Source: Bacilli bacterium
GTDB taxonomy: Bacteria; Bacillota_I; Bacilli_A; RFN20; CAG-826
Assembly (NCBI GenBank): GCA_017635465.1
Contig: JAGBLL010000041.1
Coordinates: 81,685-145,684, forward strand
Length of the DNA stretch: 64,000 nt
Direction: 5' to 3'
This document shows, in pieces, positions 10,896 to 43,416 of this stretch. The notes under the pieces were generated by a model. The model was not told where the DNA came from and did no database searches. It saw nothing but the letters and a program-made list of their open reading frames with translations. The first letter of the stretch is position 1. Each line of letters starts with the position of its first letter. The position numbers were made by a program, and so were the translations under genes.

Positions 10896-10903
10896 TATTT
10901 TTA

Positions 10904-10931
10904 TGGTCAGAAATGAAATAGATGATATAAT
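10904..10931 (+). promoter_or_regulatory. promoter of antisense RNA A
   Basis: Plus strand: -10 TATAAT at 10926-10931 with TGGTCA as a 16-base-spaced -35 (10904-10909). The equivalent hexamer is conserved in the second locus. Confidence 0.55.
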
Positions 10932-10937
10932 AAGACC

Positions 10938-10993
10938 ATAAGAACGAATCCTCTAAACACTTTTTGGTAGAAGTTTAAAGGGATTCTTTTTTT
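10938..10993 (+). ncRNA. antisense RNA A (candidate type I antitoxin)
   Basis: A short plus-strand RNA is predicted from about 10938 to a terminator: GAATCC (10946-10951) pairs with GGATTC (10981-10986), an inner TAAAC/GTTTA stem encloses a loop with TTGG, and seven T follow. It converges on toxin ORF A and overlaps its stop codon and mRNA 3' end. It aligns base for base with antisense RNA B, including the 5' CCATAAGAA and the loop. TTGG fits a YUNR U-turn, common in antisense-RNA loops. Confidence 0.65.
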
Positions 10994-11075
10994 AAACCAA
11001 CTTGATTAGTAGGAATAAAAAGAGGCATATCACAAAAAGAATCAAAAGCATTTTGAATTCATTTAATAGTTTCAA
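10992..11075 (-). CDS. 27-residue hydrophobic peptide, candidate type I toxin A
   Basis: A TTG-initiated ORF encodes 27 residues: polar start MKLLNEFK, a hydrophobic block of about 16 residues (MLLILFVICLFLFLLI), and end KLV. The near-perfect ribosome-binding site AAAGGAGGTG is 7 bases before the start. Upstream, ACCTC (minus strand) can pair with GAGGT of that site, stacked on TTCAC-ATTA-GTGAA, which would hide it in the full-length mRNA. The layout (single-helix peptide, sequestered site, convergent antisense RNA at the 3' end) is that of type I toxin loci such as txpA/ratA or bsrG/SR4. The sequence does not look like Fst, TxpA, BsrG or TisB. Toxicity is inferred. Confidence 0.7.
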   Translation of the reverse strand: MKLLNEFKMLLILFVICLFLFLLIKLV

Positions 11076-11120
11076 TGCTTATCACCTCCTTTCACTAATG
11101 TGAATAGAGGTATTCGTTTA

Positions 11121-11145
11121 GAGTTTTAACGTCTTGTCTTTGACG
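11121..11145 (-). repeat. 25-bp direct repeat, copy 1 (leader of toxin A)
   Basis: The 25 bases are identical to 11363-11387. On the minus strand each lies near the predicted 5' end of a toxin mRNA and can form a small hairpin (CGTC/GACG). Copy 1 also contains the -35 of antisense RNA B on the opposite strand. Confidence 0.85.
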
Positions 11146-11161
11146 AGCATAATGTTATAAT
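11134..11161 (+). promoter_or_regulatory. promoter of antisense RNA B
   Basis: Plus strand: -35 TTGTCT (11134-11139), 16-base spacer, -10 TATAAT (11156-11161). It overlaps, in the opposite direction, the likely weak promoter of toxin A (CATTAT at 11149-11154). Confidence 0.65.
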
Positions 11162-11167
11162 GAAGCC

Positions 11168-11227
11168 ATAAGAAGGAAGTCCTCACAACACTTATTGGTT
11201 AGAAGTTATAGGGAGACTTCTTTTTTT
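11168..11227 (+). ncRNA. antisense RNA B (candidate type I antitoxin)
   Basis: A plus-strand RNA of about 60 bases ends at GAAGTC (11176-11181) pairing with GACTTC (11215-11220) followed by seven T. It is clearly homologous to antisense RNA A (shared CCATAAGAA, AACACTT, TTGG and AGAAGTT blocks). It overlaps the stop codon and 3' end of toxin ORF B in convergent orientation. Confidence 0.65.
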
Positions 11228-11315
11228 ACTTTAATAAGATTTTTATTAAGCAAAGAAGAAGGCATACCAAAGCGATTTTGATGATTATTAAGTAATCTCT
11301 ATGTTCACTCTTCAA
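11226..11315 (-). CDS. 29-residue hydrophobic peptide, candidate type I toxin B
   Basis: A TTG-initiated ORF encodes 29 residues: polar start MKSEHRDY, hydrophobic middle LIIIKIALVCLLLCLI, end KILLK. GAGGTG lies 7 bases upstream, in the same context (GGTGAT-NNG-CATTG) as toxin A. Minus-strand ACCTCA in the leader pairs with TGAGGT over the ribosome-binding site, replacing the A-copy stem with a different sequence, so the fold is conserved by compensatory change. Peptide sequence is less conserved than gene layout. Likely inserts in the inner membrane; function inferred from architecture only. Confidence 0.7.
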   Translation of the reverse strand: MKSEHRDYLIIIKIALVCLLLCLIKILLK

Positions 11316-11362
11316 TGCAAATCACCTCACTCTCTAGTGTTAGATTATGAGGTCTTCCTTCC

Positions 11363-42944: not shown

Positions 42945-43009
42945 TTGAATATTTATGAAATAAGTTTCACATTGTCGTTGTAATAACAAAATATCTATGT
43001 TTTAATAGT

Positions 43010-43075
43010 TGTGTTAGTTGCTTGCGGCCTAGCCGATAAAGCCCAATTAAGTAGGCTTTGCACTAACTTTTTTTG
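43010..43075 (+). ncRNA. candidate small RNA with three-way junction and terminator
   Basis: On the plus strand GTTAGT-T-GC (43013-43021) pairs with GCACTAAC (43060-43067), enclosing hairpins CGGC-CTA-GCCG and AAAGCC/GGCTTT, and seven T follow at once. The T run exists only on this strand, yet no plus-strand gene lies upstream, so a free-standing RNA is implied. TTGTCG/TATGTT (18-base spacing) upstream could be its promoter. It overlaps the last codon and stop of the convergent 99-residue gene. Not a family I recognise. Confidence 0.5.
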
Positions 43076-43362
43076 TTATTTATTAGGAACTCTTCTATCT
43101 CTTTCAAGTCTTCTTCCGACAAATGATATTTAGCTAGTAATTGACCTCTAGTTTTTATTGAATCGTTTCGAACATATTTTCTTATAAATGCATCTTTTTT
43201 GTTACCACTTGGATTATGACGCAATTTTATGTATCTTCCAGAATGCGTTGGACTAGATGTTAATTCCATATTTTTCCATCTCTCCTTATTAGACTCGATT
43301 TCCAAACTAGGGTGATATTTCGTACGTTTATTTTTGTAAAACCAATAAGTTCTTTTTTTCAT
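43063..43362 (-). CDS. 99-residue basic protein, unknown
   Basis: The ATG at 43362 gives 99 residues; GGAGG lies 12 bases upstream. The protein is very basic. Regions of note are KYHPSLEI near the N-terminus, LTSSPTHSGRYIKLRHNPSG, and KDAFIRKYVRND followed by a helical end. This resembles short conserved hypothetical proteins of Firmicutes, but I know no function. It interrupts the usual truA-rplM neighbourhood with yebC. Its leader carries the GGACAAAATT-N11-CCTAC element and a perfect hairpin that includes the ribosome-binding site. A convergent candidate sRNA overlaps its 3' end. Confidence 0.75.
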   Translation of the reverse strand: MKKRTYWFYKNKRTKYHPSLEIESNKERWKNMELTSSPTHSGRYIKLRHNPSGNKKDAFIRKYVRNDSIKTRGQLLAKYHLSEEDLKEIEEFLINNKKS

Positions 43363-43416
43363 AGCAAATTTAAGCCTCCTATATGTTTTAGTAGGAGGCA
43401 AAAGTCAATTTTGTCC
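43362..43416 (-). promoter_or_regulatory. shared GGACAAAATT-N11-CCTAC element and RBS hairpin, copy B
   Basis: Minus strand: GGACAAAATT (43407-43416), 11 bases, CCTAC (43391-43395). GCCTCCTA pairs with TAGGAGGC (8 bp), which holds the ribosome-binding site. Loop bases match copy A while stem bases differ but still pair. Confidence 0.55.

Follow-up and report, generated by a model that had tools for sequence, protein, structure and literature searches.

A branched small RNA gene convergent with a small basic protein gene in gut and rumen Bacilli: a candidate RNA-antitoxin/protein-toxin module

Introduction

In a Bacilli bacterium (GenBank assembly GCA_017635465.1), a compact branched hairpin on the plus strand of contig JAGBLL010000041.1 ends in a T run over the last codons of a minus-strand gene for a 99-residue protein. 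Both lie in the 64,000-nt stretch analysed here (the window; contig positions 81,685 to 145,684), whose numbering is used unless another locus is named. What is a folded RNA doing head-on against the end of a protein gene? A preliminary description of the locus suggested a trans-acting small RNA or an antisense regulator. We find that the RNA gene and its linkage to the protein gene are well supported by comparison with related sequences, and that an RNA binding the protein as an antitoxin would fit better than either suggestion.

Results

A small RNA gene facing the 99-residue gene

Folding of the plus strand gave a 55-nt RNA (43013-43067) with a three-way junction. Its outer stem, P1, consists of 6 bp (43013-43018/43062-43067), a bulged U at 43019 and 2 bp more (43020-43021/43060-43061), and encloses the hairpins P2 (CGGC/GCCG, 43025-43028/43032-43035) and P3 (AAAGCC/GGCUUU, 43038-43043/43054-43059). 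A run of seven T (43068-43074) follows directly as the predicted terminator. The preliminary description had read the site in this way, and was also right that the minus strand has no T run here and that no plus-strand gene lies upstream. Its overlap of about 13 bases with the protein gene (43063-43362, minus strand) is real, at 12 nt including the T run and 5 nt for the stem alone.

A sigma-A-type promoter, with a −35 box TTGTAA (42978-42983), a 17-nt spacer and a −10 box TTTAAT (43001-43006), ends 6 nt before the stem. The RNA is predicted to start at about the first stem base. When both strands of the window were scanned for a stem, T run and promoter in combination, the site at 43013 was the sole match. 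The energy of the fold is unremarkable (−15.4 kcal/mol, z −1.35, 18 of 200 shuffles equally good; on the opposite strand z −2.37, 4 of 200), and was left out of the argument for that reason. The case for the window RNA rests on its placed promoter, a second genomic copy, covariation and its family-wide association with the gene. The second copy, the only further one found by DNA search of the same genome, is full-length, 81% identical and directly behind a paralogue of the 99-residue protein (59% identity). The element matched no Rfam family at gathering and E-value thresholds, including the AbiF RNA RF03085.

The RNA accompanies the gene in its homologues

Within its own order, 83 of 279 genomes contain homologues of the 99-residue protein; in a sample of 392 genomes from across the phylum, 31 had them, every one of the same class. 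Named homologue records belong to rumen or gut metagenome genomes assigned to 'Erysipelotrichaceae', Bacillales or Bacilli. A genome can hold several copies (six matches in G000). Identical genes were merged before counting, which reduced 182 matches to 117 distinct homologues.

A strict rule asked for an outer stem with 7 or more uninterrupted pairs, spanning 36-115, close to the stop codon and followed at once by T5. Such a stem and T run were present on the antisense strand at the gene end of 62 of the 117 homologues, against 2/117 on the sense strand, 2/309 for the remaining genes at these loci and 15/585 for shuffles. Allowing one interruption gave 64 of 117, against 9 of 307 control genes. 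The strict rule undercounts, since the window's own element fails it through the bulged U. The preliminary description had asked whether the RNA always accompanies homologues of the gene; it largely does, with the strict 62 of 117 falling short of all. An earlier loose test (85/100) had no position limit and included chance stems, and is not relied on here.

The branched antisense-strand stems differ in sequence between subfamilies, and in other members the stem lies outside the reading frame. The window RNA is a single element without tandem repeats, and the relatives displayed have one element per gene. Genes of a related protein cluster that adjoin family members in the comFA region end likewise in such RNAs. 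Of the 62 strict cases, 47 agreed with the promoter consensus at 8 or more of 12 bases within the 50 bases upstream, at a distance of 4-10 nt from the stem, compared with 296 of 1240 shuffles; at a threshold of 10 or more of the 12 bases the figures were 14/62 and 7/1240. Judged by its signals, the RNA is a transcription unit.

The fold is kept on one strand and persists beyond the gene

The folded strand was identified from the mismatched cells of 18 distinct copies with a GTTAG-type stem and 10 with a CACCC-type stem. Among non-Watson-Crick cells, 28 were G-U, one was A-C and 9 were others; the prevalence of G-U points to the antisense strand, as a fold of the opposite strand would show its wobbles as A-C. 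In the CACCC type the outer stem has changed almost wholly with its pairing kept: 94.9% of cells are paired and 23 carry changes in both partners, a figure that none of 500 shuffles reached, and the pairing is lost when the partner is shifted along. P2 is changed on both arms in the GTTAG type (20-copy alignment), and P1 and P3 covary in a wider set (11-copy alignment). Of the alignments used, A10 was fitted to the structure of the model, so its counts lean towards that structure, and A11 retains two partly misaligned rows, L142 and L148, both of which count against pairing.

Searched with a covariance model built on the GTTAG type, 274 genomes yielded 20 copies, spread over 16 of them. Thirteen stand behind an intact gene and one behind a decayed gene (G131); three are extras beside a gene-linked copy (G194, G141, G134), two have no gene on the expected side (G021, G214), and one lies at a contig end (G015). 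In the whole of its own genome, model R1 found two copies, both behind the gene. The orphan copies keep promoter and fold. Among other RNA types, the RNA and T run are kept at genes broken by frameshift, stop or truncation (L071, L079, L227, L230), of which single frameshifts may be errors, these being metagenome assemblies; decayed gene L226 has a simple hairpin only.

By sequence, the RNA outlasts its gene. The preliminary description had held that conservation confined to the minus-strand gene would speak against a separate RNA; what we see is RNAs persisting beside broken genes and without a gene. Its view of an independent plus-strand RNA with its own terminator, and not a by-product of the minus-strand gene, is borne out as far as sequence comparison goes.

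Behind a decayed gene at L224 (2600-2800), an RNA of one subfamily is neighboured by an RNA of another, next to a gene for what we take to be a RhuM-like protein.

Gene and RNA are gained and lost together

Genomes of the same genus with 96-100% identical YebC were compared between yebC and rplM. Between yebC and the start of rplM lie 649 bp in the window genome and 645 bp in G005, where gene and RNA are present, and 211-212 bp in G006, G008, G011 and G004, where both are absent. A different subfamily with a different RNA occupies this spot in G013, and other sequence is found there in G007 and G009. Gene and RNA are gained and lost as a unit.

Units occur in tandem at L081 and L089. One or more of comFA, comFC, comEC, holA and rpsT lie within three neighbours per side of 26 of the 117 members, a count that relatedness inflates; the other 91 lie elsewhere. 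The ComF, ComE and HolA names were taken from Pfam matches of one representative per cluster and are in part presumptive.

Some neighbourhoods have features of their own. Upstream of comFA-comFC at L073 (4224-8708), L056, L057, L058 and L059, 5′ fragments of comFA are repeated between family units, as if each unit had arrived with, or recombined into, the start of comFA. A recurrent operon with large membrane or secreted-looking proteins (L075, L080, L087, L090, L082) carries one or two family members about 6 kb apart; three of its proteins had no match in Pfam, and it is possibly a conjugative or integrative element.

Two other convergent pairs lie in tandem in the window at 10900-11350, between rny and recA. 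Minus-strand genes for hydrophobic peptides of 27-29 residues (TTG start) face plus-strand RNAs of about 55 nt with TATAAT promoters and T7 ends; we take them to resemble type I toxin-antitoxin pairs of the fst/ldr type. The preliminary description's comparison of the present locus with these was apt in layout.

The partner is a small basic protein

The 99-residue protein has 24 K+R, 12 D+E, an isoelectric point of 10.0 and a grand average of hydropathy of −1.35. No curated family in Pfam, PHROGs, NCBIfam or PADLOC covered its family when 74 members were searched; the sole matches were scattered, each to a single member, at E 0.0008-0.009, and PF02452 (PemK_toxin) was not among the matches at E ≤ 0.01. 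The family profile matched no toxin among PDB sequences at E ≤ 1 and nothing meaningful. Phages, plasmids and viral contigs gave no match for the window protein or its relatives, apart from one relative on a viral contig (L194, 2694-2915; 46% identity).

The related protein cluster belongs with the family by profile comparison (hhalign, 95%, E 2e-8). One relative (L058, 5299-5619), folded with window and family sequences, gave a model with a predicted local distance difference test score (pLDDT) of 86. Foldseek ranked MazF/PemK-type toxins 1-13 for this model (probability 1.00, E 0.007-0.025), some of these entries being, as we take it, of that type. In VIA comparison it reached Z 8.7 and 3.3 Å over 93 residues of MazF-mt3, and Z 7.8 for CcdB. 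The modelling of this relative suggests a MazF/Kid-type fold for the superfamily, and the protein is presumably a ribonuclease (RNase). Conservation is highest at H17-P18 and T35, which a non-significant profile alignment (E 0.024) places opposite the RP and TS motifs of PF02452 members; we take RP and T to be catalytic positions of MazF. The window protein's own model gave no usable match, its best VIA matches (nsp9 and MazF) being too weak to stand alone.

In the leader of the gene, an inverted repeat GCCTCCTA...TAGGAGGC (43374-43399, minus strand) would mask the ribosome-binding site. L007, from the same locus, has a similar repeat, and inspection by eye shows one in further free-standing copies; at the window locus and in L041, L053 and L011 a leader repeat CCTCC...GGAGG would hide the site. 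The leaders of the window gene and L007 contain CCUACU, complementary to AGUAGG of P3; it is absent from the other ten listed relatives with the GTTAG stem. Across 59 RNA-leader pairs there was no preference for the RNA's own leader (mean rank 0.46, p 0.32), and leader pairing was rejected as a general rule.

Discussion

We consider that the pair is probably an RNA-antitoxin/protein-toxin module which functions in the manner of type III but has another layout, with convergent genes, separate promoters and an unrepeated RNA. A folded RNA of about 60 nt would be made from its own plus-strand promoter and end at the outer stem and T7. The convergent gene would yield a small basic protein with a MazF/Kid-type fold, presumably an RNase, which the RNA would bind and neutralise as ToxI does ToxN. 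On loss of the module the RNA would disappear first and the protein would act, so that genomes would tend to retain the module. We infer the toxicity, the RNA-protein binding, the transcription and the relative half-lives. If the RNA is an antitoxin, one expects a small basic protein of MazF fold together with a small folded RNA that stays beside the gene, is retained also without it, and needs no fixed overlap with its frame.

Known RNA-protein systems offer partial likenesses. Type III systems (ToxIN, CptIN, TenpIN) likewise pair an RNA with a small protein, and their toxins have the MazF/Kid/CcdB fold (PMC5086642), a fold that is here modelled for a relative. In type III, a single promoter serves an RNA upstream on the same strand, with tandem repeats and a terminator between RNA and toxin; the window module, in contrast, is convergent, with its own RNA promoter, a single branched RNA and no sequence match to known toxins. 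Going by its orientation, promoter and lack of repeats, the module is not type III as defined; it may function like one. The roughly 100-nt RCd22 RNA of Clostridioides difficile, an antitoxin with promoter and terminator, neutralises the AbiF toxin by binding (PMC12373285), a binding that we would expect here. RCd22 is described there as upstream of abiF, co-transcribed and made of two RF03085 motifs, whereas the window RNA matches no Rfam family. MazF/PemK toxins (PF02452) share the predicted fold of the relative and, in the weak alignment above, the placing of HP and T on RP and T; they differ in that no sequence match is significant and that an RNA instead of a protein antitoxin lies beside the gene.

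Several observations weigh against a toxin-antitoxin module. The standard type III layout is absent, 55 of the 117 homologues fail the strict test (many of these show an RNA by eye), and at L154, an intact gene, there is no RNA to be seen. For the window protein itself the model is poor (pLDDT 72), and its VIA scores against MazF are only Z 2.4-3.5, below coronavirus nsp9 at 4.9. The relative's Foldseek matches have E-values of only about 0.007, VIA scores Tudor-like barrels at up to Z 8.2 over about half of the domain, and hhalign against PF02452 members is not significant (E 0.024, probability 2%).

The main rival is antisense control, since a map of convergent type I pairs looks much the same; bsrG/SR4 too is reportedly convergent. 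The RNA would then pair with the 3′ end of a toxin mRNA for RNase III to cut, as in txpA/RatA or the convergent pairs of C. difficile. In such pairs (txpA/RatA, C. difficile CD-RCd) the RNA ends at the 3′ end of the toxin gene (PMC6563280), and the C. difficile layout is shared here. The RNA would be fully complementary to any read-through mRNA, and the pairs near 11 kb have the same layout. We nevertheless think this unlikely. Type I toxins are short hydrophobic peptides whose mRNA the RNA pairs with, unlike this soluble, basic protein of 99 residues; the stem overlaps the frame by just 5 nt in the window and lies outside it in other members; the RNA does not prefer its own leader; compensatory changes keep its own fold, which cis pairing does not need; and RNAs persist without the gene. 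The lack of preferential leader pairing and a structure conserved beyond antisense need would fit a protein-binding RNA better than an antisense one.

A non-toxic partnership, with a small RNA-binding protein acting alongside its RNA as a host regulator (of DNA uptake, for example), draws on the 26 members near competence genes, holA or rpsT, and strikes us as improbable: 91 members lie elsewhere, genomes hold several copies, units are present or absent among genomes with near-identical YebC and stand in tandem arrays, and the relative's modelled fold is MazF-like.

Mobile behaviour and a branched palindrome beside each gene could instead mean that the hairpin acts at the DNA level, either as a recognition site or as the terminus of a mobile element, and that the protein is a recombinase (REP/RAYT-like or cassette-like). 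This is very improbable given a promoter at fixed distance and wobble pairs that favour one strand by 28:1; REP/RAYT elements are dispersed multi-copy hairpins, whereas R1 has two copies in its own genome, both behind the gene. Integron attC sites seem an unlikely match, the end sequences being oriented the wrong way.

That the element is no more than an outsized terminator, or a side effect of coding conservation, is barely credible: the terminator is real and the plus-strand fold energy unremarkable, but orphans keep promoter and fold, control gene ends score 2/309, and no upstream plus-strand gene needs a terminator.

Searches of open full texts brought up no description of such an RNA-protein pair. 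A wider proposal, attractive to us though we stop short of calling it probable, is that gut and rumen Bacilli harbour a large and undescribed superfamily of modules with a protein toxin and an RNA antitoxin: one MazF-fold lineage in which each member has its own head-on branched RNA, with many RNA folds against one scaffold, orphan RNAs giving immunity, and repeated settling in DNA-uptake operons. Few families of protein-binding RNA antitoxins are known, and those named have a repeated RNA upstream of the toxin. If the proposal is true, one scaffold with many diverged RNA partners, often several per genome, would make the evolution of RNA-protein specificity measurable; the RNAs would be small natural RNase inhibitors of about 45-105 nt, and a group of rumen Bacilli genes annotated as 'hypothetical' would be explained.
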